Origin: Comamonas sp. 26
Lineage (GTDB): Bacteria; Pseudomonadota; Gammaproteobacteria; Burkholderiales; Burkholderiaceae_C
Direction: 5' to 3'
Assembly: GCF_002754475.1 (NCBI RefSeq)
Contig: NZ_PEFL01000001.1
Coordinates: forward strand, 2,232,001-2,296,000
Length of the DNA: 64,000 nucleotides
The notes under the pieces are model-generated. The model searched no databases and was not told the origin of the DNA. It worked only from the letters and a program-made list of their open reading frames with translations. The stretch's first letter is position 1. Every line of letters begins with the position of its first letter. Positions 14,191 through 58,594 of the stretch are shown one piece after another. Both the position numbers and the translations under genes were made by a program.

Positions 14191-15531
14191 TTACTGATCA
14201 CGAGTCTCCAGCGCGCGGTTGATACCCAGAGCCACCAAGGTGCACAGCGCGCCCGACAGCAAGTAGATACCTAGTGCCACCAGACCAAACTTGGCCGACA
14301 CACCCAGCGCCACCAGTGGTGCAAAGGCCGCGCCAATCAGCCAAGCCATATCCGTGGTCAGTGCAGCGCCGGTGTAACGGTAGCGCGAGGAGAAGTTGGA
14401 AGTCACCGTGCCCGATGCCTGACCATAGGACAGACCCAGCAAAACAAAGCCCACAATGATGAACACATTGTTGCCCGTAGTGCCGCTACCCAGCAGCCAG
14501 GGAGCCAGAAAGCTGAAGATACCAATCAGGCAGGCCATGGCACCCAGCGTGTTGCGGCGCCCTACCCTGTCTGCCAGCCAGCCCGACACCATGATGGCCA
14601 CACCCGCCAGCAGCGCGCCAATAATCTGCACCACCAGCACCGAGATGACCGACTGATCGGAGTACATCGAGATCCAGGACAGCGGAAACACCGTCACCAG
14701 ATGGAACAGTGCAAAGCTGGCCAGCGCGGCAAAAGCGCCAATCATTACATTGCGGCCTTCATTGCTGAGAAGGCGTGTCACGCTGACGGGTTCCAGCTCG
14801 CGCTCTTGCAGCAGCTGTGTATAGGATTGGCCTACAACCAAGCGCAGACGGGCGAAGAGCGCTACAACATTCACAGCAAAAGCCACGCAGAAGGGGTAGC
14901 GCCAGCCATAGCTCAGAAACTCATCAGCCGTCAGGCTTGAGTACAGAAAGGCAAACAGTGCAGCAGCAAGGACAAAGCCCAGAGGTGCCCCCAACTGCCC
15001 AATCATTGAATACCAACCGCGCTTGTCCTGCGGAGCCGACATGGCCAGCAGCGAAGGCAGACCATCCCAGGAGCCGCCCATCGCCAAACCCTGGCCGATA
15101 CGCAGCACGACCAACGCCCAGACTGCCTTCATGCCCGCATCGGCATAGCTGGGCAAAAACGTCATGCTCACTGTGCACACACCCAGCAGCAACAGCGCCA
15201 GTGTCAGCTTGGTGGCACGGCCCCAGCGGCGCTGCACGGCCATGGATAGCGCCGTACCGATGGGGCGGGCAATGAAGGCCAGCGAGAAGATGGCAAACGC
15301 GGCCAGCGTGCCATCGAGCTTGGACAGGTAGGGGAATAGCAGCGTGGGGAACACCAGCACGCAGGCAATGCCAAACACAAAGAAATCAAAATACTCGGAA
15401 GAGCGCCCAATGATGACGCCCACCGCGATTTCACCGGGGGTCACATCTTCATCAGTATCCGCGTAGGCCAGGGTTTCCGAGTTCTCATAGTCTTGCTGAG
15501 TAAGACCAATGGACGGGTTCAAGCTTGTCAT
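14191..15531 (-). CDS. MFS transporter, metabolite:H+ symporter type
   Basis: A 446-residue inner-membrane carrier with about 12 hydrophobic segments from the ATG at 15531 (MTSLNPSIGL), which has an AGGAG ribosome site; a 20-residue longer frame is unlikely. Motifs of the metabolite-H+ symporter group are visible: GVIIGRSSEYFDFFVFG in the first segment, RPIGTAL, RIGQGLAMGGSWDG, and the cytoplasmic loop motif SGWLADRVGRRNT. Such carriers import mono-, di- or aromatic carboxylates. It is convergent with a Bug binding protein; a joint role with that gene is possible but unproven. Confidence 0.88.
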   Translation of the reverse strand: MTSLNPSIGLTQQDYENSETLAYADTDEDVTPGEIAVGVIIGRSSEYFDFFVFGIACVLVFPTLLFPYLSKLDGTLAAFAIFSLAFIARPIGTALSMAVQRRWGRATKLTLALLLLGVCTVSMTFLPSYADAGMKAVWALVVLRIGQGLAMGGSWDGLPSLLAMSAPQDKRGWYSMIGQLGAPLGFVLAAALFAFLYSSLTADEFLSYGWRYPFCVAFAVNVVALFARLRLVVGQSYTQLLQERELEPVSVTRLLSNEGRNVMIGAFAALASFALFHLVTVFPLSWISMYSDQSVISVLVVQIIGALLAGVAIMVSGWLADRVGRRNTLGAMACLIGIFSFLAPWLLGSGTTGNNVFIIVGFVLLGLSYGQASGTVTSNFSSRYRYTGAALTTDMAWLIGAAFAPLVALGVSAKFGLVALGIYLLSGALCTLVALGINRALETRDQ

Positions 15532-15869
15532 AAAGGGTCTACTCCTTGTCTTGCTGTTCAGTCCCGGGGACGCTTTCCGTTCTACGCCCAAGAATGTGCA
15601 GCTGCAATAGAGTTTTTGCCCTCAGTACTGTCAGCCAACCGACAAGCAGATGAGCTTTGAGGGCTGATTTGACAATTACAAGCCCTGTTTGGCCATCTTT
15701 TCAGGCCCGTCAAATGCCTGCTAACTCATTGTCACATAGCGTATTTTTAAAACCACTACATTGACCTGAGACAAAATGTCCAATAGACAAATGACACTCA
15801 GGTATTACATTTGCGGAGATCCAGTAATCCGCGTTTACACCTAAGCGCGACTTTGTCACGCCTAAAGCA
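15532..15869. promoter_or_regulatory. Divergent promoter region between the MFS gene and the cyo operon
   Basis: The segment contains the arms ACCTGAG (15764-15770) and CTCAGGT (15797-15803), an exact seven-base dyad 26 bases apart, the first preceded by TTG to give a TTGACC -35-like element. A second small dyad, GCGGA/TCCGC, follows before cyoA. No gene is evident. Confidence 0.4.
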
Positions 15870-16925
15870 ATGTTAAAAATCAAGGAAATCCGTGGGCCCG
15901 CGTGGCTCGCAGCGGCTGCTTTGACTGCGACCCTCGCCGGTTGCAGCAAACTTGTCGTGCTCAACCCAGCTGGCGATATTGCCAAGCAACAGGGCGATCT
16001 GGTCATTACGGCCACCTTGCTGATGCTGCTCATCATCGTCCCCGTCATCTTTTTGACGCTGCTGTTCGCCTGGAAATACCGCCAGTCCAACACAGAAGCC
16101 ACGTACGACCCCGAATGGCACCATTCCACAGCGCTGGAACTGGTGATCTGGACCGTTCCTCTGCTCATCGTTATTGCTCTGGGTGCCATCACCTGGATCA
16201 GTACCCACAAGCTGGACCCTTACCGCCCTCTGGACCGCGTCTCCTCAACCAAGGCCCTGTCTGCTGACGTCAAGCCTCTGGAAGTGCAAGTCGTTTCCAT
16301 GGACTGGAAGTGGCTGTTCTTCTACCCCGAGCAAGGTATTGCCTCGGTGAATGAACTGGCTGCTCCTGTGGATCGCCCCATTCATTTCAAGCTGACAGCG
16401 TCCAACACCATGAGCGCTTTCTACGTGCCTGATCTGGCCGGCATGATCTACACCATGCCCGGCATGCAGACAGAGCTGAACGCCGTGGTCAACAAACCTG
16501 GCGTGTACAAGGGCATGGCCTCGCACTACAGCGGCGCAGGCTTTGCAGGCATGAACTTCAAGTTCCATGGCGTGAGCAATGAAGAGTTTGACCAGTGGGT
16601 GGCCAAGGCCAAGACTGAAGGCAAGACTCTGACTCGCAATGCCTACCTCGACCTGGTCAAGCCCAGCGAGCGTAACCCTGTCGAACGCTTCGCCGCCGTG
16701 GATGAAGGCCTGTACACCAAGGTCCTGAACCGCTGCGTGGAAGACGGCAAAAAGTGCATGAACGAAATCATGGCCATTGATGCTGCCGGTGGTGGCGGCC
16801 ATGCCTCGCACGGCAAGACCTCCAGCGTGAGCCTGCCCCTGGACGTTTGCACATCCAAGGACGCTGACCGCGTTGTGGCTTTGCTCGACGAAGTCGCAGC
16901 CTCCGGAGCTGTCGCACAGCAATAA
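15870..16925 (+). CDS. cyoA: Cytochrome bo3 ubiquinol oxidase subunit II
   Basis: A 351-residue lipoprotein subunit: signal and lipobox LAGC with the modified Cys at residue 25, two membrane segments (about residues 45-70 and 90-112) and a periplasmic cupredoxin domain. The CuA ligand set is absent (the position reads SHYSGAGFAGMNFKFHG), so it is a quinol rather than a cytochrome-c oxidase subunit. The C-terminal tail is longer than in E. coli and carries extra cysteines (NRCVEDGKKCM, LDVCTSK). It leads the cyoABCD operon. Confidence 0.93.
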   Translation: MLKIKEIRGPAWLAAAALTATLAGCSKLVVLNPAGDIAKQQGDLVITATLLMLLIIVPVIFLTLLFAWKYRQSNTEATYDPEWHHSTALELVIWTVPLLIVIALGAITWISTHKLDPYRPLDRVSSTKALSADVKPLEVQVVSMDWKWLFFYPEQGIASVNELAAPVDRPIHFKLTASNTMSAFYVPDLAGMIYTMPGMQTELNAVVNKPGVYKGMASHYSGAGFAGMNFKFHGVSNEEFDQWVAKAKTEGKTLTRNAYLDLVKPSERNPVERFAAVDEGLYTKVLNRCVEDGKKCMNEIMAIDAAGGGGHASHGKTSSVSLPLDVCTSKDADRVVALLDEVAASGAVAQQ

Positions 16926-16986
16926 GTAGCTTACGGAGCGGATGAGCTTAGGCCCCGCCACTCCAATACGACAAAAGTGACTCAAC

Positions 16987-18993
16987 ATGTCTGAAACAAC
17001 AACCCCGGCCGCACACTGGCTGCTGGGCCGCATCACATGGGATCAGATTCCCATGACGCATGAGCCCATCGTGCTCATGACCTTTATCGCCGTGGTGCTT
17101 GGCGGCCTCGTGGTGGTTGGCGGCCTGACCAAGTTCCGCCTCTGGGCCCCACTCTGGAACGACTGGATCACCTCCATTGACCACAAGAAGATCGGCATCA
17201 TGTACATGATCCTCGGTCTGGTCATGTTCCTGCGCGGCTTTGCCGATGCGGTGATGATGCGTATCCAGCAGTCCATGGCCTTCGGTGAAAACCTCGGCTA
17301 CCTGCCTCCCCACCACTACGACCAGATCTTCACAGCCCACGGCGTGATCATGATCTTCTTCGTGGCGATGCCCTTCGTGACCGGTCTGATGAACTATCTG
17401 GTTCCTCTGCAGATCGGTGCACGTGACGTGTCCTTCCCGTTCCTGAACAACTTCAGCTTCTGGATGACCACTGGCGGCGCCGTGCTGGTGATGATCTCCC
17501 TGTTCCTGGGCGAGTTCTCCACCTCCGGCTGGCTGGCTCTGTCCAATCTGGGGCACCAGAGCGGAAGTACGGGTCTTGACTACTACATCTGGGGCCTTCA
17601 GGTCGCCGGTGTCGGTACGACACTTTCAGGTATCAACCTGATCGTGACCATCATCAAGATGCGCGCTCCTGGCATGAACCTGATGAAGATGCCCGTCTTC
17701 ACATGGACTGCCCTGTGCACCAACGCCCTGATCGTGGCTTCGTTCCCCGTGCTGACCGCCGCTCTGGTGCTCATGTCGCTGGACCGCTACATGGGTACGC
17801 ACTTCTTCTCGAACGACTTCGGTGGCAACCCGATGTTGTACGTGAACCTGATCTGGATCTGGGGTCACCCTGAGGTCTACATCCTGATCCTGCCCTGCTT
17901 CGGTGTGTTCTCCGAAATCGTGGCGACGTTCAGCCGCAAGCGTCTGTTTGGCTACACCTCGATGGTTTACGCCACCGTGTGTATCACCATCCTGTCCTAC
18001 CTGGTGTGGCTGCACCACTTCTTCACCATGGGTTCGGGTGCCAGTGTGAATACCTTCTTCGGTATCACCACGATGATTATTTCGATCCCTACGGGCGCGA
18101 AGATCTTCAACTGGCTGTTCACCATGTACAAGGGCCGCATCCGCTTCACAGTGCCTATGCTGTGGACCGTGGGCTTCATGGTGACCTTCGCCATCGGCGG
18201 TATGACCGGTGTTCTGCTGGCCGTGCCACCTGCTGACTTTGTGCTGCACAACTCGCTGTTCCTGATCGCCCACTTCCACAACGTGATCATTGGCGGCGTG
18301 GTGTTTGCCGTGTTTGCCGGTATCAACTACTGGTTCCCCAAGGCTTTTGGCTTCAAGCTCAATGAGTTCTGGGGCAAGGCATCGTTCTGGTTCTGGCTGG
18401 TCGGTTTCTGGGTTGCTTTCACACCCCTGTACATCCTGGGTCTGATGGGCGTCACTCGCCGCGCCAACCACTTTGACGATCCTTCGCTGCAAATCTGGTT
18501 CATCATTGCCGCCTTCGGCGCTGCCTTGATTGCCGCTGGTATTGGCTGCTTCTTCATCCAACTGGCCGTGTCCATCTGGAAGCGTGACGAACTGCGCGAC
18601 GTGACTGGCGACCCATGGGAAGGCCGTACGCTGGAGTGGGCAACTTCCTCGCCTCCTCCCCAGTACAACTTTGCCTTCACCCCCGTGGTGCATGACATCG
18701 ACGCCTGGCACGACATGAAGAAGCACGGCTATGAGCGCAAGCTGTCCGGTTTCGAGCCCGTTCACATGCCTGCCAATACTGGCGCTGGCGTGGTGATTGC
18801 TGGCCTGTCCACCGTTCTGGGCTTTGCTCTGATCTGGCACATGTGGCCGCTGACGATCGCTTCGTTCATCGCAACCGTGCTGGCTTCGATCATCCATACC
18901 TTCAACTACAAGCGTGACTACTACATCCCCGCAGCCGTTGTGGCAGCGACGGAAGAAGCACGTACCAAGCAGCTTGCAGCAGCCCATGTCTAA
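16987..18993 (+). CDS. cyoB: Cytochrome bo3 ubiquinol oxidase subunit I
   Basis: The 668-residue haem-copper catalytic subunit with about 15 membrane segments. It shows [11 protein letters not shown] near the N-terminus, a haem His in [11 protein letters not shown], CuB ligand and His-Tyr region [12 protein letters not shown], the CuB His pair VWLHHFF and haem ligands in [11 protein letters not shown]. It reduces O2 to water at haem o/CuB with ubiquinol as donor and pumps protons. Its last bases overlap the start of cyoC. The haem O synthase gene cyoE is not in this window. Confidence 0.96.
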
Positions 18994-38609: not shown

Positions 38610-41489
<2,880 letters not shown>

Positions 41490-41708: not shown

Positions 41709-42878
41709 ATGCCGCTTCTGCCGCTTCACAAACGTGCATTTATTCTTCTTTTGATAGCAGTTACCCTAGGTTTCGGCTTGGTTCTGCAGGAATATGCCGT
41801 AGCTATTTTCTGGGGTGTCACGTTTGCCATTGTCTTTGCCCCCCTGCACCGAAAGCTGCTGGCGCGAATGCCCCAAAAACCAACACTGGCAGCACTTGCA
41901 ACCCTGCTGATCAGTCTGGTAATGGTGATTTTTCCGCTGGTCTTGATCAGCCTGTCCCTCATCAAAGAGACTGCCGCCATTTACGACCGCATCAACAGCG
42001 GTAACCTGTCCGCAGGCAGCTACGTGGAGCAGGTCTTCAACGCCCTGCCCTCATGGATGACGCCCTGGATGGATAAGCTGCATCTGGGCACTTTGGCCGA
42101 GATTCAGAACAAGCTTTCCAATATTGCGCTGCAAGTGAGCAAGCTGGCGGCCACCAAGGCCGTGGGCCTCGGTCAGAACACACTGGGCTTCGTGGTCGGC
42201 TTCGGCGTAATGCTGTATCTGATCTTCTTTTTGCTGCGTGATGGCAAAGCGCTGGTCGCCCGTATCTGGGTTGCTACCCCTCTGGCGCCCGACCACAAAC
42301 GCGAGCTTGCTACCAAGTTCATTACCGTCATCCGCGCCACGGTCAAAGGCAACCTGGCTGTTGCTGCGGCACAGGGTGCATTGGGTGGTCTGATTTTCTG
42401 GATTCTTGGCATTCAAGGTGCCGTGCTGTGGGCCGTTGTCATGGCCTTTCTATCCCTGCTGCCTGCCGTGGGGGCAGGTCTGGTCTGGGGCCCGGTGGCG
42501 ATCTACTTTTTCGCCACCGGCGAAGTCACCCAAGGTGTCATCCTTGCCGCTTACGGGGTTGTGGTGATTGGACTGGTAGACAATGTACTTCGACCTTTGC
42601 TGGTCGGCAAAGACACCAAGATGCCGGACTATGTTGTCTTGATCTCTACGCTGGGCGGCATGGCCTTGTTTGGACTCTCTGGCTTTGTCATCGGACCTGC
42701 GATTGCCGCCCTCTTTATGGCCGCCTGGGAGTTGTTTACCTCCATGCAGGAACAAGAAGAAAAGCAGCTGAGCACTGAATTCGATCAAAAACGCGCAATC
42801 GAAGACAAGACAATAGAGACAAAAGAAGTCAGCAAACCGCTTGAAATCAAGCCAGAAAACCCCGGAGTTGAGCCCTAA
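41709..42878 (+). CDS. AI-2E/PerM family transporter
   Basis: A 389-residue membrane protein of the AI-2 exporter/PerM superfamily (DUF20). It has about eight hydrophobic segments, a central soluble-looking stretch, and family motifs GFVVGFGVMLYLIFFLLRDG, LGIQGAVLWAVVMAFLSLLPAVGAG and VGLVDNVLRPLLVG-like IGLVDNVLRPLLVG. Members export small molecules or act as Na+/H+ antiporters; the substrate is unknown. The charged C-terminal tail is species-specific. It is divergent from sucA. Confidence 0.88.
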   Translation: MPLLPLHKRAFILLLIAVTLGFGLVLQEYAVAIFWGVTFAIVFAPLHRKLLARMPQKPTLAALATLLISLVMVIFPLVLISLSLIKETAAIYDRINSGNLSAGSYVEQVFNALPSWMTPWMDKLHLGTLAEIQNKLSNIALQVSKLAATKAVGLGQNTLGFVVGFGVMLYLIFFLLRDGKALVARIWVATPLAPDHKRELATKFITVIRATVKGNLAVAAAQGALGGLIFWILGIQGAVLWAVVMAFLSLLPAVGAGLVWGPVAIYFFATGEVTQGVILAAYGVVVIGLVDNVLRPLLVGKDTKMPDYVVLISTLGGMALFGLSGFVIGPAIAALFMAAWELFTSMQEQEEKQLSTEFDQKRAIEDKTIETKEVSKPLEIKPENPGVEP

Positions 42879-43072
42879 ATATTGACCGTAAATGACAGCA
42901 ATCATTCCATAGCCAAAAGGTATGGCGGTCATTAAGAAAAACAAAAGCGAATTAAAACAATCAAAGACGCTCAGCCTTACTCAACAATTAAGGGTTTGTT
43001 ACTGCTATCAAAAAAGGGCCAAGCCGTAAAATTTGCTTTCACATAAGCGTTCAACCGAAAAGGTACCCCACG

Positions 43073-46000
43073 ATGGTCCAATTCTCCAGACGCCAGTTCA
43101 TGAAAGTGACTGGTTCGGCTCTGGCGGGTTCCAGTATGGCGCTGATGGGTTTTTCACCCACAGCTGCTCTTGCTGAGGTGCGGCAGTACAAACTGTCATC
43201 CACCACCGTAACTCGCCAAACCTGCACCTACTGCTCAGTAGGCTGCGGAATCTTGATGTACTCCTTGGGCGACGGCGCCAAAAATACCCGTCTGTCCGTA
43301 CTGCACGTGGAAGGCGACCCGGATCACCCGGTCAATCGCGGAACACTGTGCCCCAAGGGTGCATCGCTGCTGGACTTCGTCCACAGCCCTAACCGCCTCA
43401 AGTACCCAGAGTACCGCGCACCAGGCTCTTCGGAGTGGAAGCGCATGTCCTGGGACGATGCTCTGAACCGCATTGCCAAGCTGCTCAAGGATGACCGCGA
43501 CGCCAACTTCGTTGAAACCAACGAAAAAGGCCAGAAGGTCAACCGCTGGCTGACCACCGGCATGCTGGCCGCATCGGCTGCCAGCAATGAAGCCGGCTAC
43601 ATCACGCACAAAGTGGCCCGTTCCTGGGGCCTTCTTGCACTCGATAACCAAGCACGTGTCTGACACGGCCCGACGGTGGCAGGTCTTGCCCCGACGTTTG
43701 GCCGTGGAGCGATGACGAACCATTGGGTCGACATCAAGAACGCGGACGTTATTTTGATCATGGGCGGTAATGCCGCCGAAGCACACCCCTGCGGCTTTAA
43801 GTGGGTGACCGAAGCGAAGGAGCACAACAAGGCTCACTTCATGGTGGTCGATCCGCGCTTTAACCGTTCGGCATCCGTGGCTGACTTCTATGCACCGATC
43901 CGCTCTGGCTCGGACATCGTCTTCCTTGGTGGCGTGATCAATTACCTGCTCACGAACGACAAGATTCATCACGAGTATGTGAAGAACTACACGGACTTCT
44001 CGTTCATCGTGCGCGAGGACTTTGCGTTCGACGAAGGTATTTTCTCTGGCTACAACCCTGAAAAACGTACTTACGACAAGGCGTCGTGGGACTACGAACT
44101 GGGTGAAGATGGCTTTGTGAAGGTGGATCCGACTCTGGAGCACCCCCGCTGCGTCTATCAGTGGCTCAAGAAGCACTACGCTGGCTACACCGCTGAAAAG
44201 GTGGAATCCATCTGCGGCACACCCAAGGAAAAATTCCTGCACGTGTGCGAGAAGCTGGCATCGACCGCCGAAGCCGGTCGCGTTGCGACCATCATGTACG
44301 CCCTAGGCTGGACTCAGCACACCACAGGTGCGCAGATCCTGCGTACCGGCGCCATGATCCAGCTGCTGCTAGGCAATATCGGTATCGCTGGCGGCGGCAT
44401 GAACGCGCTGCGTGGCCACTCCAACATTCAGGGGCTGACCGACCTGGGCATTCTGTCTGCTTCGCTTCCAGGGTACCTGACGCTTCCAAACGAAGCCGAG
44501 CAAGACTACGACCAGTACATCGCCTCGCGCACGCCAAAGTTGCTGCGTCCTGGTCAGATGAACTATTGGTCGAACACGCCCAAGTTCCACGTCAGCCTGA
44601 TGAAGGCATGGTGGGGTCCCGCTGCAACTGCTGAGAACAACTGGGCATTTGACTATTTGCCCAAGCTGGACAAGCAGTACGACATGCTGCAGGTGTTTGA
44701 GCTGATGACCAAGGGTCAAATCAACGGCTATATCGCCCAAGGTTTTAACCCGCTGGCAGCGCTGGCCAACAGCAACAGCGTGCGCGAAGGCCTTAAGAAG
44801 CTGAAGTTCCTCGTCATCATGGATCCGCTGGTCACAGAAACTTCCGAGTTCTGGAGAAACCACGGCGAATTCAACGATGTGGACTCGGCCTCGATTCAGA
44901 CCGAAGTGTTCCGTCTGCCAACCACCTGCTTCGCTGAAGAAGAAGGTGCCGTGGTCAGTTCTTCACGCGTGCTGCAGTGGCACTGGAAGGCTGCAGAGCC
45001 ACCAGGAGAAGCCAAGACTGACATCGCGATCATGTCGGGCCTGCATCTGCGCCTGAAGGCTCTCTACCAGAAGGATGGCGGCAAGTTTGCCGATCCCATT
45101 ACCAACCTGTTCTGGCCTTACGCCGAATCCGCTCACCCCTCTGCCGAGGAAGTAGCCAAGGAATACAACGGCCGTGCACTGGTAGATCTGTTCGATCCTA
45201 AGGACCCCACCAAGCTCATCCGCAAAGCGGGCGAGCAACTGGGCGGTTTTGGCGAAATGCGCGATGACGGCACCACGCTGGGTGGCTGCTGGATCTGGGC
45301 TGGTGCCTGGACCTCGTCTGGCAACCAAATGGCTCGCCGTGACAACAGCGACCCAACTGGCATTGGCAATACGCTGAACTGGGCCTGGGCCTGGCCTGCC
45401 AACCGCCGCGTGCTGTACAACCGTGCATCGTGCGACCGTGAAGGCAAGCCTTTCAACCCTGACCGCGTTCTGATCAAGTGGAATGGCAAAAACTGGGGTG
45501 GTGCTGACGTACCAGATATCGCCCCGACCTTGCCGCCGGAGACCACCAATCCGTTCATCATGAACCCCGAAGGGGTGGCCCGCCTGTTTGCCCGCAAGGG
45601 TCTGATAGAAGGACCGTTCCCCACGCACTATGAGGCGTTTGACAACCCGCTTGGATACAACCCCATGTATCCCAAGAACAAGCTGGCCGTCATCAGCCCC
45701 ATCATCCGTATCCTCGACACCGCCAAGGGCACGCAGGGCGACCCCAAGGACTATCCACATGTGGGTACGACTTACCGCCTGACCGAGCACTTCCACTACT
45801 GGACCAAGCACGTTCAGCTGAACAACATTGTTCAGCCCGAGCAGTTTGTGGAAATTGGCGAGGCCTTGGGCAAGGAGCTGGGTATTGCCACCGGGCAGAA
45901 CGTCAAGGTTTCGTCAAAGCGTGGCTTTATCAAGGCCGTGGCTGTAGTGACCAAGCGCATCAAGCCTATGCAGATTGATGGCAAGACCATCCATCACGTG

Positions 46001-46138
46001 GGCGTGCCGATTCACTGGGGCTTCTCCACAACGGGACGCAAGGGCTATCTGGCTAACAACCTGACAGCCTCCGTGGGTGACGGTAACAGCTTGACCCCTG
46101 AATCCAAGACCTTCCTCGTGAAGGTGGAAAAGATCTAA
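43073..46138 (+). CDS. fdoG: Selenocysteine-containing formate dehydrogenase, alpha (catalytic) subunit, FDH-N/FDH-O type
   Basis: One 1021-residue protein read through an in-frame UGA at 43661-43663. The N-terminus is a Tat signal (SRRQFMKVTGSALAG). The [4Fe-4S] cysteines are C51, C54, C58 and C93. UGA is codon 197 in the context NQARV-Sec-HGPTVAGLAPTFG, exactly where FdnG/FdoG carry selenocysteine as molybdenum ligand. A SECIS hairpin follows the UGA. The rest holds the bis-MGD folds and the C-terminal cap. It oxidises formate in the periplasm and passes electrons to the beta subunit. selA, selB and the tRNA-Sec gene lie downstream, so readthrough is expected rather than a nonsense mutation. 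Confidence 0.95.
43661..43706 (+). promoter_or_regulatory. UGA selenocysteine codon with bacterial SECIS element
   Basis: After the UGA, CACGGCC (43664-43670) pairs perfectly with GGCCGTG (43700-43706). The apical part has GG (43675-43676) pairing with CC (43691-43692), a bulged U at 43677, a four-pair stem GGCA/TGCC and the loop GGTCT (43682-43686). The bulged U and the GGUCU loop are the SelB-recognised features of the E. coli fdhF and fdnG elements. The hairpin starts immediately 3' of the codon, as required. Confidence 0.92.
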
Positions 46139-46150
46139 GGAGCCACGCTG

Positions 46151-47074
46151 ATGTCCTCAACCATGTCTCTCGATATCAAGCGCCGCTCGGCCACGACGAC
46201 TCCTGCCCCCAGTGCGCGTGATGCGCACGCGGGCGAAGTCGCCAAGCTGATCGACGTCTCCAAATGCATTGGCTGCAAGGCTTGCCAGACAGCCTGCATG
46301 GAGTGGAACGACCTTCGTGATGAAGTCGGTACGGCAGCTGCCGGCGTATACGACAACCCGACCGATCTGACCGATCAGTCGTGGACCGTGATGCGCTTTA
46401 CCGAGTACGAAAACGAAGCTACAGGCAACCTGGAGTGGCTGATCCGCAAGGATGGCTGCATGCACTGCGAAGACCCAGGCTGCTTGAAAGCCTGCCCCTC
46501 GCCTGGCGCTATCGTCCAATATGCCAACGGCATCGTGGACTTTCAGCAAGACCAGTGCGTGGGCTGCGGCTACTGCGTGACGGGCTGCCCGTTCAATATT
46601 CCGCGCATCTCCAAGAAGGACAACAAGGCGTACAAGTGCACCTTGTGTTCTGACCGCGTGGCTGTTGGCCAGGAACCTGCCTGCGTCAAGACCTGCCCCA
46701 CCGGCGCTATCCAGTTCGGCACCAAAGATGCCATGAAGGAACAAGCGTCCCGCCGTGTCGTCGACCTCAAGGAACGCGGCTACGAAAAGGCTGGCCTCTA
46801 TGACCCACAAGGCGTGGGTGGCACACACGTGATGTACGTTCTGCATCATGCGGACAAGCCTTCGCTGTACAAGGGCCTGCCGGACGATCCGTCCATCAGC
46901 CCCATGGTGTCGCTGTGGAAGGGTGTTGCCAAGCCTCTGGCTCTGGCAGCTCTGGGTGCAGCGGCCGTTGGCAGCTTCTTCCACTACATCACCAAGGGTC
47001 CTCTGGAAGTGCCCGAGGAGCTGGAAGCCGAAGAAGCCCGCAAAGCTGAACAGAGCAAGGAGAACCGCTCATGA
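46151..47074 (+). CDS. fdoH: Formate dehydrogenase beta (iron-sulfur) subunit
   Basis: A 307-residue electron-transfer subunit with four [4Fe-4S] clusters. The cysteine groups are [41 protein letters not shown] and CTLCSDRV with [10 protein letters not shown]-terminal hydrophobic helix ([18 protein letters not shown]) anchors it in the inner membrane. It connects the periplasmic alpha subunit with the cytochrome b subunit. The ATG at 46151 has a strong TAAGGAG site, and the stop overlaps the fdoI start (ATGA). Confidence 0.95.
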
Positions 47075-47697
47075 AAAGCCGCTCTCGTGACATCCAGCGC
47101 TACACCGCCGGCGAGCGCGTCAACCACTGGGTAGTTGCCATCAGCTTTGTGCTGCTGGCACTGTCCGGCCTGGCGTTCTTTCACCCCTCGTTCTTCTTCA
47201 TGACGAACCTGTTCGGTGGAGGCCCCTGGACGCGCATCCTGCACCCCTACATCGGCGTCGTCATGGCCGTCGGTTTCATCATGATGTTCTTCCGCTTCTG
47301 GCAGTTGAACATCATCAAGGACCGCGATGTGGAATGGCTCAAGAACGTAGGTGCACTGGTCAATGGCGAGCATGAAAAAATGCCCCCCGTTGAAAAGTAC
47401 AACGGCGGCCAGAAGGTTCTCTTCTGGTTGCTGGTGTTGTGCATGCTCGGCCTGACCGTGACCGGTGTGCTGATGTGGCGCGCCTGGTGGAATCTGCCCG
47501 TGACCGTTGTTCGCATCGGCTCTCTGGTGCATGCCATCAGCGCCTTTGGCCTGATCGGCCTGATCATTGCGCACATCTACGCAGCGATCTGGACCAAAGG
47601 CACCATCCGCGCCATGACCCGTGGCACCGTGACACGTAGCTGGGCACGCTTCCACCACCCACTGTGGTTCCGCAAGGTCACTGGCGAAGACAAGTAA
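47071..47697 (+). CDS. fdoI: Formate dehydrogenase gamma subunit, cytochrome b556
   Basis: A 208-residue membrane cytochrome with four hydrophobic segments. Haem b ligand candidates are the His in [12 protein letters not shown], the His in [15 protein letters not shown], and the His residues in [23 protein letters not shown]. It takes electrons from FdoH and reduces quinone on the cytoplasmic side. Its ATG overlaps the fdoH stop. A stem-loop follows before fdhE, so the maturation and Sec genes may be expressed at a lower level. Confidence 0.94.
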
Positions 47698-47788: not shown

Positions 47789-48754
47789 ATGCAACGCATC
47801 CTCCAACCCGGTGAAATCGAAGCACTGGATCACACCAGCTTTCCCCGCATCTTGCTGCCCCAGGTGAGCAGCCTGTTCGCCGAGCGCGCTGCACGCTTGC
47901 GTCAACTGGCCAATGGCAACCCGATTGCTGACTACCTGCAATTTGTAGCGCAGATCATGGACGCGCAGCACAAGGCCGTCGCAGCAGTGGAAATCACCGC
48001 GCCTGATGCAGCACTGATGGCCCGGGCCCAGGAGCATTCCATGCCCCTGCTGCCCGCAGTGGACACCATTGATCCCGTCTGGCAAACAGTGCTGGACAAT
48101 ATGCTCGATACGCTGCAAGGCAGCGAGGGCCTGCCCGCACCACTGCAGCCCCTGCTCAAAGAACTGCGCGCACTGGCCCCCGAAGCCCGTGCCGACATTG
48201 CCAAAAAGCTGCTGCAAAAAGAAGTGGCCGCACGTCACGTAGGCATGGCCCCCTTCATCATGGCAGCGCTGCAAGTCACCTTCACCAAGCGCTCGGCCAG
48301 CCTCAGCCCCCGCGACGTACCCTATACCGACCCCGCCAGCATCTGCCCGATCTGCGCCAGTGAACCTGTCGCCAGCGTTGTCCGTATTGGCGGCAAGATG
48401 GCCGGCCACCGCTATGCCCACTGCGGCACCTGCGCCTGCGAATGGCACATGGTGCGCGTCAAGTGCACGCACTGCGAATCCACCAAAGGCATTCACTACC
48501 AGGGCCTTGAAGGTGCTGGTGAGGAAGTTCTGGCAGAAACCTGCGAGGAATGCGGCTGCTACCGCAAGATCGTCAATCAGGAAAAGAACCCCATGGCCGA
48601 GCCTCTGGCTGACGACCTGGCCAGCCTGATGCTGGACCTGCTGATGAGCGAAACAAAGTTCCAGCGTGCCAGCGCCAACCCTCTGCTATTTGTGGCCGTG
48701 GCCGAAGAGCAAGAGAGCGAACTCAGCAACGAGCTGGTAGACCCCGCCGCCTGA
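47789..48754 (+). CDS. fdhE: Formate dehydrogenase accessory protein FdhE
   Basis: A 321-residue cytoplasmic maturation factor with the rubredoxin-like cysteine pairs of FdhE: CPICASEPV, HCGTCACEWH, CTHCESTKG and CEECGCYRK. The N-terminal LPRILLPQ-like motif reads FPRILLPQVSSLF. FdhE binds the Tat-targeted catalytic subunit and is needed for assembly of respiratory formate dehydrogenases. It lies between the structural genes and selA, all on one strand. Confidence 0.94.
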   Translation: MQRILQPGEIEALDHTSFPRILLPQVSSLFAERAARLRQLANGNPIADYLQFVAQIMDAQHKAVAAVEITAPDAALMARAQEHSMPLLPAVDTIDPVWQTVLDNMLDTLQGSEGLPAPLQPLLKELRALAPEARADIAKKLLQKEVAARHVGMAPFIMAALQVTFTKRSASLSPRDVPYTDPASICPICASEPVASVVRIGGKMAGHRYAHCGTCACEWHMVRVKCTHCESTKGIHYQGLEGAGEEVLAETCEECGCYRKIVNQEKNPMAEPLADDLASLMLDLLMSETKFQRASANPLLFVAVAEEQESELSNELVDPAA

Positions 48755-48845: not shown

Positions 48846-50285
48846 ATGAGCACCACTGCAGCGACCTCCGCCGAAATTTCGCACCCCTCACAGCTGCCCG
48901 CCGTGGACAAGGTTTTGCTGGTCGCTGAAATGCAGCCACTGCGCGAAGCCTACGGACTGGACGCCTGCACCAAAGCCGCCCGCAATGTGCTCACGCAGTT
49001 GCGCCAACAGTTGCTGGGTTCAGCCGATCAACCAGGTCAGCCCGTGCAAGCAGACCTCACCAGCATTGTGCAAAGTGCTCAACGCCAGCTGCAGGCCCGC
49101 TTTGCACCGCGTCTGCAACCAGTGCTCAACCTCACCGGCACCGTGCTGCACACCAATCTGGGCCGAGCCCTGCTGCCGCAGGCCGCCATTGATGCCGTCG
49201 TGCAGGCCTTGAGTTCCCCCGCCAACCTTGAATATGACTTGCAAGACGGTAGCCGCGGCGACCGCGATGACCTGGTCGAATCGTTGATCTGCGAGCTGAC
49301 CGGTGCAGAAGCCGCAACCGTCGTCAACAACAATGCCGCCGCCGTGCTGCTGGTGCTGTCCACCATGGCCATGGGCAAAGAAGTCATTGTCTCGCGCGGC
49401 GAGCTGGTGGAGATTGGCGGTGCCTTCCGCATCCCCGACGTGATGACCCGCGCGGGCGCCAAGCTGATCGAAGTCGGCACCACCAACCGCACCCACGAGA
49501 AAGACTACGCAGGCGCTATCGGCGAGCACACCGGCGCGCTGATGAAGGTGCATTGCAGCAACTACGCCATCACCGGCTTTACCAAAGCCGTCAGCGACGC
49601 CGATGTGGCAGGCATTGCGCACGGCCACCAACTACCCATGATCGTGGACCTGGGCAGCGGCACCCTGATCGACATGCGCGACTGGGGCCTGCCCTATGAA
49701 GTGACCGTGCGCGAGACTGTGGAGTCCGGCGCCGACATCGTCACCTTCAGCGGCGACAAACTGCTGGGTGGCCCTCAGGCCGGCATCATCGTGGGCAAGA
49801 AGGAATTGATTGCCCAGATCAAGAAAAACCCCCTCAAACGCGCCCTGCGCGTTGGCAAGATCACGCTGGCCGCGCTGGAACCCACGCTGCGCCTATACCT
49901 CAATCCCGAAAAGCTGGCTGAAGAACTGACCACGCTGCGCCTCTTCACCCGCAAGGCAGCCGACATGCAGGCGCAGGCTGAAACCTTGCTGCCGCTGCTG
50001 CAGCAAGCGCTGGGCCAAGGCTTTGTGGTGGAAACTGCCGCCATGAACAGCCAGATTGGCAGCGGCGCCCTTCCCGTTGAAAACCTGCCCAGTTTTGGTC
50101 TCAAGATGTATCCGGCAAGTGGCAAGCAGGCAGGTCGCCAGCTCACCCAGCTCGAAGCACGCTTTCGCGCCCTGCCCCGCCCTGTTATTGGCCGCCTGCA
50201 TGACGACGCTTTCTGGCTGGACCTGCGCTGCCTTGAAAGCGCTGCGCAAGCCCTGTTTGTCGAGCAGCTTGGCCAACTGGCTTGA
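48846..50285 (+). CDS. selA: L-seryl-tRNA(Sec) selenium transferase
   Basis: A 479-residue PLP enzyme of normal SelA length. Visible motifs are [17 protein letters not shown] in the N-terminal part, [32 protein letters not shown], and the PLP-lysine at residue 305 in [13 protein letters not shown]. It converts Ser-tRNA(Sec) to Sec-tRNA(Sec) with selenophosphate. It lies upstream of selB, separated by about 100 bases that carry one copy of the palindromic repeat. Confidence 0.97.
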
Positions 50286-50384: not shown

Positions 50385-52310
50385 ATGATTATCGGAACCG
50401 CCGGCCATATCGACCACGGCAAAACCACCTTGGTCCGCGCCCTCACCGGCGTGGAAACTGACCGACTCAAGGAAGAGAAAGCCCGCGGCATTTCCATCGA
50501 GCTAGGCTACGCTTACAGCCCACTGCCCAATGGCGATGTGCTGGGCATCATCGACGTGCCCGGTCACGAAAAATTCGTGCACACCATGGCCGCTGGTGCC
50601 GCGGGAATCGATCACGCCCTGCTCGTCGTCGCCGCCGATGACGGCGTGATGCCCCAGACCATTGAACACCTTGAAATTCTGCAGCTGCTGGGCGTCAAGC
50701 GCGGCACCGTGGCGCTGACCAAGGCCGACCGCGTTCTGCCCCAGCGCTTGCTCGATGTCCGCCGTGAAATCACGGCCATCCTCGCCGTCACCGCGCTGGC
50801 CGATAGCCCCATCTTTGAAACCAATGCCGCCCAGCCCGGCAATACAGGCGTGCAAGCGCTGCGCGAGCACCTGCATGTGCAAGCCCAGATGATGAGTGCC
50901 CGCCCGCAGGATGGCCTGTTCAGACTCGCCGTCGATCGCGTGTTCACCCTGCCCGGTCAGGGTACGGTGGTCACCGGCACCGTTTTTAACGGCCAGGTCA
51001 AAGTAGGCGATTCACTGGTGCATTCGGCCAGCGGCCAGTCCGTGCGTGTGCGCAGTATTCATGCACAAAACCAGAGCAGTGACATTGGCGTGGCCGGTCA
51101 GCGCTGCGCCCTCAACATCGCAGGCCTTGCCAAAGAAGATATCGAGCGCGGCGACTGGATCATGGACCCGCGCCTGCTACAGGCCACCGATCGTCTGGAC
51201 ATCCACCTGCACCTGCTCAGCGAAGCTCCGAGCCTTGCGCAATGGACGCCCGTGCATATTCATCTGGGCACCAAGCGCACCACCGGCCATGTCGCACTGC
51301 TGCAAGACGAATCCATAGAACCGGGCACCGAGGCCCGCGTGCAACTGGTGCTGGATGCTCCCGTCTTCACCCTCCCCGGTGACCGCCTGATTCTGCGTAA
51401 CGCACAAGCCAGCCACACCATCGCGGGCGGCATGGTTCTTGACCCCTACGCCCCGGCCCGCAAGCGCCGCAGCCCCGAGCGCATGGCCTATCTCGACGCC
51501 ATGGAGCAGCTCATCACGCGCCATGACTTCTCTGCATTGGTGGCGCAAGCCCCGCACGGCATTGCCCGCTCGCAACTCATACGCCTCAGCGGCCATGCGC
51601 TGAATGACACAACCATTGCCCGCACCATCCAGCTGCCCGTCGCCAATGGCGATGCACTGGTACTGGGTGAGCAGCGCTGGCAGCAGTTGCAAACGCAGGT
51701 GGTGGAGAGTCTTTCCCGCTTTCACGAAAAATCCCCCGACGAGCCAGGCGTCAACGCAGCTCGCCTGCGCCGCATGGCTCTGCCCGGCCTGCAAAATTCT
51801 GGCTACGACGCGCTTTATCAAGGTCTCGTCGATGCGCTGCTGGCGCAAAAACAGCTCAGCAGCACAGGGGCTTGGCTGCACCTGCCGCAGCACACCATCC
51901 AGCTCAGCAGTGCCGAGCAAGCCTTGGCCGAGCAACTGCTGCCCGCCATTGCTGCAGCCCGCTTCGACCCACCCTGGGTGCGCGACCTGGCCCGCGACCA
52001 CAGTGCGGGTGAAGAAGTGGTGCGACAGCTACTAAAAAAGCTCTCACGCCAAGGCCTGCTGTTTCAGGTCGTCAAGGACTTGTTCTATGCGCCCGCCCGC
52101 ATGGATGAGCTGGCAGCCTTGACCACTGACATCGCTGCGCAAACCCGCAATGGTGAAGTGGAAGCCAGCGCCTTCCGAGACGCCACAGGTCTTGGCCGCA
52201 AGCGCGCCATTCAGATCCTCGAGTTCTTCGACCGCATAGGCTACACGCGCCGCGTGCGTGACGCCCACCTGCTGCGCCCCGATGTGCAATGGAAAAGCGC
52301 GGCGCATTGA
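50385..52310 (+). CDS. selB: Selenocysteine-specific translation elongation factor SelB
   Basis: A 641-residue factor. The EF-Tu-like GTPase part has G1 GHIDHGKTT, the switch region [11 protein letters not shown]3 DVPGHEKFV and G4 TKADRV. Beta-barrel domains 2 and 3 follow ([15 protein letters not shown]), and then the C-terminal winged-helix domains that bind the SECIS loop (about residue 370 to the end; [22 protein letters not shown] is in the last one). It delivers Sec-tRNA to the UGA of fdoG. The length is slightly above that of E. coli. Confidence 0.96.
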
Positions 52311-52493: not shown

Positions 52494-52589
52494 GGAAGGC
52501 AATCGTGCCCGGTGGCGCGGCCGGGCTTCAAACCCGGTGGGGGGCGTCAGCCGCTCCCGGGTTGGTTCGACTCCAGCTGCTTTCCGCCA
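52494..52589 (+). tRNA. selC: tRNA-Sec (anticodon UCA)
   Basis: A 96-base gene including encoded CCA. The acceptor stem has eight pairs (GGAAGGCA with TGCTTTCC), diagnostic for bacterial tRNA-Sec. The anticodon loop CTTCAAA carries TCA at 52528-52530. A long extra arm (GGGGGGCGTCAGCCGCTCCC region) and the T loop GGTTCGACTCC follow. A weak promoter is possible at about 52415-52445 (TACAAT as -10). It lies 180 bases after selB, so enzyme and decoding genes are contiguous. Confidence 0.95.
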
Positions 52590-53856: not shown

Positions 53857-54917
53857 GCCGGACCAAAAAGTGACAAGCCGCAGCGACTCACCATCAGAAG
53901 ATACAGCCTTTAAAAGACAGCGCCATACAAAGAAACATCAAATAAACCGTTCAAAGTCTTGCTTGATTTACAACAAGCTCAGGTAGTAAAAAAAGCCACC
54001 TTAGCGAAATCAGTCGCGAACCTTTTTCGAGCATCAGTGCTCTTTTACAGAGCATGCGCATAAGCAGTGAATTGCATAGTTTCAAGATCATTCCTAAGCC
54101 CTGTATCGTCGAGCACCATTTTTCGTTACTGGAAAAGAGCAGGCAGTTATTGAGGAACTGCGGGCTTCTATTCAACACCCGATTGCAGTTCGTGAAGCTG
54201 GCTTTCTCGGCGCTTTACTCAGAATACTTTGAACACATTCTTACGGCGGTCGGATTTGAAACATATATCACTGGCCACTGAGGGGCAACATGTGCTGTAT
54301 CGACCTTCTGACGCATTAACCCCAGTCAACGGCATCTGAGGGCGACCAATCCAAAACTACCTGTGTTCACTTCACGTTCTGAAGTGAGTTTGCCCGGTAG
54401 CCGCGCTATGCAGCATGCACCCATACATCACCTAACTTCTTGGCAATGTCGATTGCAATAACGGCATGGCCCATGACGGCCTCCTGTGCATCAAGACTCC
54501 AGACTATGACTCAGAACTATTCAGTGCACACGCTTCAGGAAAAGGAGGCGTCCGTACCCACTAACGCAACCCCTGATACGCAGTTGCTTAATTTTTCCCA
54601 TGCTAGTAATACGGTCCGAGTCAAGCAAATATTTCGAAAAATAGGCAAAGAGCTTTTTAATAAAAGTTAATTCTTGAAAAAAAATTGTATTTTGGTAGAT
54701 TAACTTCAGTCTTTTCAACGCTATGCAGAAATCAAAATTTTAGTGAGGCCCTTTTGATTTCAAGCAAAACAGGCATCAATAAGGCTTCTTATCTTTGAGC
54801 GCCTTCGCCAACATACCGAAGAGACGCAGATACTTAGGCACGATCCACAGATCGCTACCCAACTCCGCTTTATCTGAAACCCACTAGGTTTTTCAACTAA
54901 GGTCCAAGAGGGAAAAA
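53857..54917. other. AT-rich, apparently decayed region without an intact gene
   Basis: About 1.06 kb with lower GC than its surroundings, particularly 54600-54780. Short open frames occur on both strands (for example 54054-54281 plus) but match nothing that I recognise. On the minus strand 54474-54406 reads a 22-codon fragment (MGHAVIAIDIAKKLGDVW) behind a good AGGAGG site. The IDIAK motif recalls the N-terminus of IS110-type transposases, so it may be a relic. The potE promoter must lie near the right end. Confidence 0.45.
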
Positions 54918-56255
54918 ATGACACAAGGCAAAAAAATGACGGTGGTGCAGCTCACCATGCTCACCGTAGTCAATATGTTGGGGTCTGGCATTGTGCTGCT
55001 ACCCACCAAGTTGGCAGAAGTCGGTGCGATCTCCATTCTCTCCTGGCTGGTGACGGCCACCGGCTCACTCGCTCTGGCTTATTGTTTTGCCCAATGCGGC
55101 ATGCTGAGCCGTAAATCTGGCGGCATGGGTGGTTACGCCGAATACGCGTTTGGCCGTTCCGGCAACTACATCGTCAACTACACCTACGGCGCTTCGCTGC
55201 TGATTGCCAATGTGGCCATTGGTATTACGGCGGTCGGTTATATGACTGAGCTTTTCGGCATGAAGCTCAGCCCTATGGGTGTTGGTTTGACAACCATCGC
55301 TTTGCTGTGGATTACCACCTTCGCCAACTTCGGCGGAGCGGGTATCACCGGCAAGATCGGTAGCGTCACCGTCTGGGGCGTGATTTTGCCGGTGGTGGGC
55401 GTCTCCACCTTTGGCTGGTTCTGGTTCAGCCCCAGCACCTATGCAGAAGCATGGAATCCCCATGGCTTATCCTACTTCCAGGCTGCCAGCTCCTCGGTGG
55501 CGATCACGTTGTGGGCATTTCTGGGTATGGAATCGGCTTGCGCCAACTCCGATGCGGTAGAGAACCCCGAAAAGAACGTGCCGATTGCCGTGCTCGGGGG
55601 CACGATTGGTGCCGCCGTGATCTACATCGCTTCGACCAATGTCATGGCCGGCATTGTCTCCAACCCTGACCTAGCAGCATCTACGGCCCCGTTTGGCCTG
55701 GTGTTCGCCCACATGTTCACACCTCTGGTCGGTCAAATCATCATGGGTCTGATGGTGCTGGCCTGCATTGGCTCGCTGCTGGGCTGGCAATTCACCATCG
55801 CTCAGGTGTTCAAAAGCTCGGCCGACACGGGCTATTTCCTGCCCATCTTTGCCAAGGTCAACAAAGCCGGAACCCCCATCGTGGCCATGCTGATTTTGCT
55901 GGCGGGCCAGACCGGTCTGGCCTTGCTGACCATCAGTCCTGATCTGACCAAGCAATTCGACACCCTGACAAACCTGGCCGTTGTCACAAATCTGGTGCCC
56001 TATGTGCTGTCCATGGCCGCACTGATGACCATCCAGAAAGTGGCCGGCGTTCCCCCGAAAAAGGCCTTGATGGTCAACATCATCTCCTGGGTGGCGGCCG
56101 CCTACAGCTATCTGGCTCTTTACAGCTCGGGCAGTGAAGCCCTGCTGCTCGGCGGCGTGGCGACCATCTTTGGCTTCACGCTCTACGGTTTTGTGAGCAC
56201 CCGCATGCTGCGCTTGGACCAAGAACGCGCAGCCGCCGCCGGCAAGCCAGCCTGA
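54918..56255 (+). CDS. potE: Putrescine:ornithine antiporter-like APC transporter (PotE/CadB group)
   Basis: A 445-residue, 12-segment APC exchanger very close to E. coli PotE throughout: VQLTMLTVVNMLGSGIVLLP, KSGGMGGYAEYAFG, TLWAFLGMESACANSDAVEN and LLGWQFTIAQVFKSS. It exchanges a basic amino acid for the diamine made by the partner decarboxylase, which removes protons from the cell. The start at 54918 follows an AGAGGG site. The decarboxylase gene begins 50 bases downstream. Whether the pair exchanges ornithine/putrescine or lysine/cadaverine is not settled by sequence alone. Confidence 0.9.
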   Translation: MTQGKKMTVVQLTMLTVVNMLGSGIVLLPTKLAEVGAISILSWLVTATGSLALAYCFAQCGMLSRKSGGMGGYAEYAFGRSGNYIVNYTYGASLLIANVAIGITAVGYMTELFGMKLSPMGVGLTTIALLWITTFANFGGAGITGKIGSVTVWGVILPVVGVSTFGWFWFSPSTYAEAWNPHGLSYFQAASSSVAITLWAFLGMESACANSDAVENPEKNVPIAVLGGTIGAAVIYIASTNVMAGIVSNPDLAASTAPFGLVFAHMFTPLVGQIIMGLMVLACIGSLLGWQFTIAQVFKSSADTGYFLPIFAKVNKAGTPIVAMLILLAGQTGLALLTISPDLTKQFDTLTNLAVVTNLVPYVLSMAALMTIQKVAGVPPKKALMVNIISWVAAAYSYLALYSSGSEALLLGGVATIFGFTLYGFVSTRMLRLDQERAAAAGKPA

Positions 56256-56305: not shown

Positions 56306-58594
56306 ATGTTTTTCAAAGCCCTGGACTATCCGACCGTCATCATCGACAGCGAGTTTGAATCTCCGCGCCTGCGCGGCACCATCATTCGATCATTGGCGGA
56401 AGAGCTGGAAAATTCCAATCAGCGCGTAATGGCCAATCTCACGCTGGACGATGCGCGCGTGGCAGCACGCACCTATCTGGCAGCTTCGGCCGTGCTGATC
56501 TCCATAGACGCCGACGAGGATGCCACTCAGCAGTTTGAGCAAATCCAGCAACTGCTTGAAGAAAACCTGGCACGCCACCCCCATCTACCGGTCTTCTTTT
56601 ACGGCGAGCGCGGCTCGGTAGAAAAAGTGCCAACCAACCTGGTGAAGTACGCCCGTGGCTACTTCTACCTGTTCGAAGACACCAAGAGCTTTATTGCCCG
56701 CCAGGTGATGCGTGCCGCCGATGAGTACATGGAACATTTGCTGCCGCCGTTTTTCAAGGCACTGATCAAGCACACGGCCAAGTCCAATTACTCCTGGTAC
56801 ACGCCCGGCCATGCCGGTGGCGTCGCCTTCACCAAATCCTCCGTGGGCCGGGCTTTTCACCAGTACTTTGGCGAGAACACGCTGCGCAGCGATCTGTCAA
56901 TTTCCGTGCCCGAACTCGGCTCATTGCTGGACCACAGCGGCCCGATACGCCAGGCCGAGACCGAGGCCGCCAAAAACTTCGGTGCTGACCATACATTCTT
57001 TGTCACCAACGGCACCTCGACGGCCAACAAGATCGTTTGGCATGGCACGGTGGCGCGTGGTGACGTGGTGTTTGTCGACCGTAACTGTCACAAGTCCTTG
57101 CTGCACTCCTTGATCATGACCGGAGCCATACCGGTGTATTTCTCGCCCAGCCGCAATGCCCACGGCATCATCGGCCCCATCAGCGAAGAGCAGTTCTCGC
57201 CCAAAGCCATGCAGGCCAAGATTGCGCAAAATCCGCTGGCTGCCCAAGCCATCAAGAACGGAGCCAAGCTGCGCATCGCCGTGGTCACCAACTCCACCTA
57301 TGACGGGCTTTGCTACAACGCCGAGAGCATTGCAAAAAAGATAGGCAATGCCGTCGACTATCTGCATTTCGACGAGGCCTGGTATGCCTACGCGGCCTTT
57401 CATCCCTTCTACGAGCACTACTACGGCATGGCCAAGGGCAAGCCGCGCGAGCAGGATGCCATCGTCTTCACCACGCACTCGACCCACAAATTGCTGGCGG
57501 CCTTCTCTCAGGCCTCGATGGTTCATGTGCGCAACAGCCGCAAACGTCAACTGGACATGGGGCGCTTCAACGAAGCCTTCATGATGCACACCTCGACCAG
57601 TCCGCTGTACCCGGTGATCGCAGCCTGCGATATTGCCTCGAAGATGATGGAAGGCAAGGCGGGTGAGTCGCTGGTGCAGGAAATGCACGACGAATCACTG
57701 GCGTTTCGCCGTGCCATGCTGCAGATTGAATCTGATCTGGACAAGAAAGACTGGTGGTTCAAGGTCTGGCAGCCGGAAATCGTGGCTAAGAATCTGCAGG
57801 AAGCCTCGACCCATATTCCGCCCGCCCAGCCCAAGGACTGGCAGTTGCGCCCCGACGGCAAATGGCATGGTTTTGACCAGCTCAGCGACAACTTTGTGAT
57901 GATCGACCCGATCAAGGTCACGCTGACCATGCCTGGATTGGAGATGGATGGACAGATGGGCGAACAAGGGATTCCTGCCAGCGTGGTCAGCAAATTCCTC
58001 TGGTCTCGCGGGATCGTGGTGGAAAAGACCAACCTCTACTCGCTGCTGGTGCTTTTCTCCATGGGTATCACCAAGGGAAAATGGGGCACGCTCGTGGCCG
58101 AGCTGATGAGCTTCAAGCAGCACTACGAGGCCAATACGCCACTGGCGCTTGTCCTGCCCGACCTGGTGGCAAATCACCCGCAGGTGTATGCAGACACGGG
58201 GCTACGTGAACTATGTGACCGCCTGCACCAGTTCAACCGCCAGCACAATGTGCCCAAGGTCATGCGCGAGATGTATGTAGAGCAGCCCGATATGGCCATG
58301 ATTCCTGCAGAAGCCTACAACCAGCTGGTGCAAGGCAATGTCGAGAAAGTGGAGGTCAAAGAGCTCAAGGGCCGCATTGCCGCGACCATGCTGGTTCCTT
58401 ACCCGCCTGGTATTCCACTCATCATGCCCGGAGAGCTTTACAACGAAAAAGCCGATGCCATCTTCAACTACCTGCGCATTGCCGAAGAGCAGGATGCCCA
58501 GATTCCCGGCTTTGAATCGGATGTCCACGGTCGAGAGGTCGAGGTAGATGCCACGGGCCAACGTCGCTACGTCGTAGAAGTGCTCAAAAACTGA
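56306..58594 (+). CDS. Orn/Lys/Arg decarboxylase, fold type I (LdcA/AdiA type)
   Basis: A 762-residue PLP decarboxylase with three parts: an N-terminal receiver-like wing domain (about residues 1-130), the PLP core, and a C-terminal domain. Core motifs are YSWYTPGHAGGVAF, ENTLRSDLSISVPELGSLLDH, FVTNGTSTANKIVWH, LHFDEAWYAYAAFH, and the PLP-lysine in THSTHKLLAAFSQAS. The sequence resembles Pseudomonas LdcA and E. coli AdiA rather than the SpeF ornithine decarboxylase, although the gene upstream is potE-like. Product is therefore cadaverine, agmatine or putrescine; lysine is my first guess. A terminator follows the stop. Confidence 0.88.
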   Translation: MFFKALDYPTVIIDSEFESPRLRGTIIRSLAEELENSNQRVMANLTLDDARVAARTYLAASAVLISIDADEDATQQFEQIQQLLEENLARHPHLPVFFYGERGSVEKVPTNLVKYARGYFYLFEDTKSFIARQVMRAADEYMEHLLPPFFKALIKHTAKSNYSWYTPGHAGGVAFTKSSVGRAFHQYFGENTLRSDLSISVPELGSLLDHSGPIRQAETEAAKNFGADHTFFVTNGTSTANKIVWHGTVARGDVVFVDRNCHKSLLHSLIMTGAIPVYFSPSRNAHGIIGPISEEQFSPKAMQAKIAQNPLAAQAIKNGAKLRIAVVTNSTYDGLCYNAESIAKKIGNAVDYLHFDEAWYAYAAFHPFYEHYYGMAKGKPREQDAIVFTTHSTHKLLAAFSQASMVHVRNSRKRQLDMGRFNEAFMMHTSTSPLYPVIAACDIASKMMEGKAGESLVQEMHDESLAFRRAMLQIESDLDKKDWWFKVWQPEIVAKNLQEASTHIPPAQPKDWQLRPDGKWHGFDQLSDNFVMIDPIKVTLTMPGLEMDGQMGEQGIPASVVSKFLWSRGIVVEKTNLYSLLVLFSMGITKGKWGTLVAELMSFKQHYEANTPLALVLPDLVANHPQVYADTGLRELCDRLHQFNRQHNVPKVMREMYVEQPDMAMIPAEAYNQLVQGNVEKVEVKELKGRIAATMLVPYPPGIPLIMPGELYNEKADAIFNYLRIAEEQDAQIPGFESDVHGREVEVDATGQRRYVVEVLKN

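Follow-up and report, generated by a model that had tools for sequence, protein, structure and literature searches.

A respiratory formate dehydrogenase cluster of Comamonas sp. 26 with an in-frame UGA very probably read as selenocysteine and its own decoding genes

According to the available portion of PMC1273633, the selenocysteine-decoding trait requires selA, selB, selC and selD, and also at least one gene with an in-frame UGA, Cys in its homologues and a SECIS element downstream. For Betaproteobacteria, the accessible part of a 2006 survey describes selA-selB-selC beside fdhA, the sole selenoprotein gene (PMC1794560). One excerpted source counts FdhA among the most widespread bacterial selenoproteins (PMC5029168), and another names it the bacterial selenoprotein family with the widest distribution (PMC13188914). 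The latter excerpt models the bacterial SECIS element as a hairpin after the in-frame UGA whose apex has one G or more in its first two positions (PMC13188914). In Comamonas testosteroni S44, selD and selA have been reported, as far as the excerpt of PMC5859168 extends. Among the papers listed for selenocysteine formate dehydrogenase in Burkholderia or Comamonas, none deals with the locus described here, judging by titles and opening lines of abstracts.

The window is the whole stretch of Comamonas sp. 26 DNA that was analysed (64,000 nucleotides), and all positions refer to it unless another contig is named. The locus is an ordinary family member with a known arrangement and a textbook mechanism, and is in this sense already known. 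It is almost certainly a betaproteobacterial cluster for a standard respiratory formate dehydrogenase (FDH-N/O type) and includes its own cassette for decoding selenocysteine. Genes, codon, hairpin and conservation were observed directly. Judging from the sequence, the RNA hairpin very probably allows the UGA to be read as selenocysteine.

The fdnG/fdoG-type formate dehydrogenase-N alpha subunit is encoded at 43073..46138 (+). Its frame runs from an ATG at 43073 to a TAA ending at 46138, and the sole in-frame stop between them is the TGA (UGA) at 43661..43663 (+), the putative selenocysteine codon according to frame reading and relatives. Beyond it, 820-odd codons are open. Frame reading thus bore out the in-frame UGA at 43661 and the frame open to 46138 that had been claimed in the preliminary description, and the residues after the UGA are HGPTVAGLAPTFG, as given there. 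The predicted product has 1021 aa, with Sec at residue 197. The profile TIGR01553 matched it with 1453.9 bits (cut-off 814.2) over residues 4-1020. The chain 1kqf_A (database name: nitrate-inducible formate dehydrogenase major subunit) aligned over the full length with 1508.4 bits, again over residues 4-1020, and the X of the chain stands in the same column as the UGA. We take this chain to be E. coli FdnG and its X to be Sec. The identity of the gene as a formate dehydrogenase alpha gene and the correspondence of the UGA to the Sec position of FdnG/FdoG, both proposed earlier, agree with these alignments. A domain search placed an Fe4S4 domain before the UGA and a molybdopterin domain (residues 108-591) across it. 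The N-terminus, MVQFSRRQFMK, resembles a twin-arginine signal. No sigma-70-like promoter or terminator was found in a scan of 42850-43100, a result that carries little weight.

A bacterial SECIS element accompanies this codon. The covariance model Rfam RF01989 (SECIS_3) matched 43658..43716 (+) with 85.3 bits, above the gathering score of 63 (E 7.2e-19 over the window). The hairpin proper, with pairs taken from the SECIS_3 model, occupies 43664..43706 (+) and has 7+2+2+5 pairs. The outer stem consists of seven pairs (43664-43670 with 43700-43706), followed by two helices of two pairs each (43672-43673 with 43698-43699 and 43675-43676 with 43691-43692). In the apical stem, 43678-43682 form five pairs with 43686-43690, ending in a G-U, and U 43677 is unpaired. 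Standard pairs were found at 16 of 16 model positions. The model match and the pair listing confirm the outer stem of seven pairs, the bulged U and the GGUCU that had been read from the letters; the stem ends at 43706, the end coordinate given at that time, and the "GGUCU loop" is 43682-43686. Set beside the excerpted bacterial SECIS model (PMC13188914), the UGA at 43661-43663 is followed by a stem from 43664 and by the apex GGUCU at 43682-43686.

In the window's genome, RF01989 was found at one site (150 of 2236 first-look candidates scored). RF01988 gave 23.2 bits at the same site and 20.1 bits at another, with a cut-off of 70 (150 of 1380 candidates scored). RF00031 had no match in this genome nor in 14 control genomes and is hence uninformative. 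When 14 control genomes were scanned with SECIS_3, E. coli alone gave a match.

The neighbouring genes lie on the same strand as the alpha gene. They encode the formate dehydrogenase beta subunit (iron-sulfur; 307 aa; 46151..47074, +; TIGR01582, 474.2 bits; Form-deh_trans), the gamma subunit (cytochrome b; 208 aa; 47071..47697, +; TIGR01583, 187.9 bits), the accessory protein FdhE (321 aa; 47789..48754, +; TIGR01562, 271.7 bits), the L-seryl-tRNA(Sec) selenium transferase SelA (479 aa; 48846..50285, +; TIGR00474, 597.5 bits) and the Sec-specific elongation factor SelB (641 aa; 50385..52310, +; TIGR00475, 475.5 bits). All five were above curated cut-offs. SelB has C-terminal winged-helix domains and aligned with chain 5lzb_z over query residues 1-632. 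The tRNA-Sec gene selC, with anticodon TCA (UCA), was identified by ARAGORN at 52494..52589 (+) and by RF01852 with 78.1 bits (52494-52585). SelA, SelB and tRNA-Sec are thus encoded within 9 kb downstream of the alpha gene. SelD is encoded elsewhere in the genome (C1:1640780-1641706, 442.1 bits, stop-free). The preliminary description had named a lack of SelA/SelB function as evidence against selenocysteine; at the level of genes, both are present downstream of the alpha gene. With regard to the components listed in the excerpt of PMC1273633, we found selA, selB, selC and selD, TGC in seven same-genus paralogues and the SECIS_3 match.

Other features of the window were noted in passing. A sucA RNA motif (RF01070, 41494-41576, -, 82.0 bits) lies immediately upstream of the gene for 2-oxoglutarate dehydrogenase E1 (38610-41489, -), which is the known location of this known motif. 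About 1 kb at 53857-54917 has no ORF of 120 aa or more and precedes a PotE-like antiporter gene (54918-56255). At 56306-58594, a 762-aa amino-acid decarboxylase (arginine/lysine/ornithine type) is encoded, which scored below the cut-offs of the six families listed.

The protein search, whose six search peptides lie away from the Sec site, kept at least 80 named relatives. The TGA at residue 197 was present in all 79 of the named relatives covering the site (L078 is incomplete there). The protein identity of the relatives was 69-90%, and the best named among the matches listed belong to Comamonas, Delftia and Acidovorax (85-90%), which points to a probable comamonad origin of the window. Across 61 whole genomes, 37 had an over-cut-off SECIS_3 match (window's own included): 33 of 37 from the same genus and 4 of 24 from elsewhere in the order. 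The four same-genus genomes without a match are only 59-85% complete. In total, 39 such places were found, and TGA was present at 32 of the 32 examined, the window's own among them.

Both selA and selB were found near fdhB in 69 of the 80 listed named relatives. If the stretch from the fdhB start was at least 6.5 kb long, both were found in 69 of 71 listed relatives; nine of the eleven relatives without both have less than 6.5 kb of sequence from that point. ARAGORN found tRNA-Sec at 52 of the 60 loci run, out of at least 80. The eight misses were seven stretches ending early and L018. As a separate observation, L018 (a Lautropia MAG) has a UGA-containing FDH-N gene without selA and selB nearby despite enough sequence, and L077 (Candidatus Burkholderia verschuerenii) has one without selA nearby, also with enough sequence. 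The missing sel genes may lie elsewhere in these genomes or may have been lost.

The hairpin might merely mirror a conserved protein sequence, with the UGA decoded in another way, e.g. as Trp by near-cognate suppression. We checked this with a synonymous recoding null, in which the peptide was kept and codons were drawn from the gene's own usage. All 16 pairs were formed in 101 of 20000 trials, an equal or lower energy was reached in 32 of 3000, and a GGTCT apex appeared in 5390 of 20000. Because recoding yields the apex this often, the apex alone says little, and the counts for pairs and apex mean that protein constraint accounts for part of the hairpin. RNA energy by itself is weak evidence as well: z was -1.69, and 15 of 200 shuffles folded as well.

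The synonymous sites speak against this alternative. Mean synonymous diversity in codons 198-212 was 0.073, compared with 0.359 over the gene's 627 usable codons, in 79 relatives of which many come from few genera and are not independent. None of 20000 amino-acid-matched random codon sets was as low, nor was any equally long run of codons outside residues 190-220. Codons 201-206 each have a single identical codon throughout the 79 named relatives. As judged from these alignments, evolutionary constraint on synonymous sites is the strongest evidence for the SECIS element. Moreover, in seven Cys paralogues, whose peptide is almost identical, 11-13 of the 16 SECIS pairs are present and the GGUCU apex is missing, and selA, selB, selC and selD are all present. 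Decoding of the UGA as anything other than selenocysteine is therefore considered very improbable.

The pairing itself was compared in 14 of 17 distinct TGA-bearing hairpins, where 96.4% of pair cells were standard and two pairs were changed on both sides. When the partners were slid by 1-3 columns, standard pairs fell to 24-53% and two-sided changes to none. In 4 of the 14 hairpins, columns 8 and 48 did not pair, and three further outer pairs were each broken in one or two. The inner helix was paired in all 14, while the outer stem was imperfect in some relatives. Covariation is thin because the SECIS element hardly varies.

Sub-cut-off RF01989 matches (38-46 bits) were found in seven same-genus genomes, and 7 of 7 were TGC genes. 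The FDH-N paralogues that have Cys (TGC) in place of Sec (L123, L125 and L127-L131) share 61-64% identity in the aligned part. When their pairing was compared with their own synonymous null, six had no excess (the observed count was equalled or exceeded in 14542 to 18180 of 20000 trials), and L123 had a weak one (2244 of 20000). In the six Sec genes tested, the observed pairing was reached in 74-377 of 20000 null trials. As the pair counts of the Cys paralogues rarely exceed the recoding null, their SECIS resemblance is mostly shared protein sequence. The idea of a fossil SECIS element in these paralogues was rejected on the same counts. A second selenoprotein candidate (G000:C2:669824-670618, an FDH-N profile match with one TGA) was also rejected: the Sec site is TGC, and the TGA precedes the first start because the ORF of that strand has its start codon within the match (1501-2295), at 2259 of L087.

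Two genomes of the genus have a second Sec-type FDH-N gene (L124 in G032 and L126 in G009, ~58% identity). The SECIS apex of these genes is AGUCU, not GGUCU, and their hairpins have compensatory stem changes. The window itself has the GGUCU copy only. Tentatively, G009 and G032 may each use a single Sec machinery for two FDH-N genes, one with a GGUCU and one with an AGUCU apex, and G032 has in addition a Cys paralogue with an unpaired apical stem. We regard such sharing as possible but rather unlikely; if true, the series would be a natural test of SelB requirements.

The significance of the locus lies mainly in annotation. A database search scored 7999 proteins, and among the best 120 listed, 84 were C-terminal fragments of at most 820 aa that begin after the UGA, 82 of them with MTNHWVDI, whose Met lies 17 residues after Sec. 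The remaining 36 of the 120 were full length, with C at the site in 22 (U may be stored as C in such entries), W in 5 and the searched motif missing in 9. N-terminal fragments were too short to count as candidates in this search. For these 84 proteins, the earlier expectation that gene calls would split the gene held true.

The predominance of C-terminal fragments in the list could be read as real termination at the UGA, i.e. as two open frames giving two separate polypeptides with no readthrough, yet ordinary gene callers treat UGA in exactly this way. Moreover, the UGA lies inside one continuous FDH-N alignment, the molybdopterin domain crosses it with the Fe4S4 domain ahead, and the constraint on codons 198-212 exceeds that on the protein. 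We therefore give termination hardly any credence. A pseudogene, an inactive gene whose TGA arose by nonsense mutation or replaces TGC/TGT through a sequencing error, would agree with the splitting of the frame by mechanical ORF calling and is extremely unlikely in view of the TGA kept in every listed relative covering the site and at all examined over-cut-off SECIS_3 places, the long open frame past it, the SECIS match and the adjoining decoding genes.

For the preferred reading, in which the UGA is read as selenocysteine, we infer decoding, co-transcription, metal, electron path and export from the established E. coli system. With selenophosphate from SelD, SelA would turn seryl-tRNA-Sec into selenocysteyl-tRNA-Sec. 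SelB would carry the selenocysteyl-tRNA-Sec, bind the hairpin apex just past the UGA and deliver Sec to the ribosome, so that translation would continue to the 1021-residue alpha subunit. There, Sec would coordinate the molybdenum (or tungsten) at the site of formate oxidation, and electrons would pass from the beta subunit via the cytochrome b gamma subunit to quinone.

Compared with the Betaproteobacterial fdhA beside selA-selB-selC in the excerpted survey, the layout here is the same and no difference was seen (PMC1794560). That excerpt describes fdhA as the only selenoprotein gene (PMC1794560), and RF01989 was found here at one genomic site among the 150 of 2236 candidates scored. The W/Sec formate dehydrogenases of PDB 6sdr and 8cm4, labelled by their depositors as selenocysteine-containing, belong to the same family and are more distant than 1kqf (865-873 bits). 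We take them to be of the sulfate-reducer type. The apex is GGCA-GGUCU-UGCC here, whereas the SECIS_3 consensus is GGCC-AGUCU-GGCC. The closest known enzyme is E. coli FdnG (1kqf), which aligned over nearly the entire protein (1508 bits, residues 4-1020) with its X at the UGA column. In comparison with E. coli FdnG, fdhE, selA, selB and tRNA-Sec directly follow the enzyme genes here.
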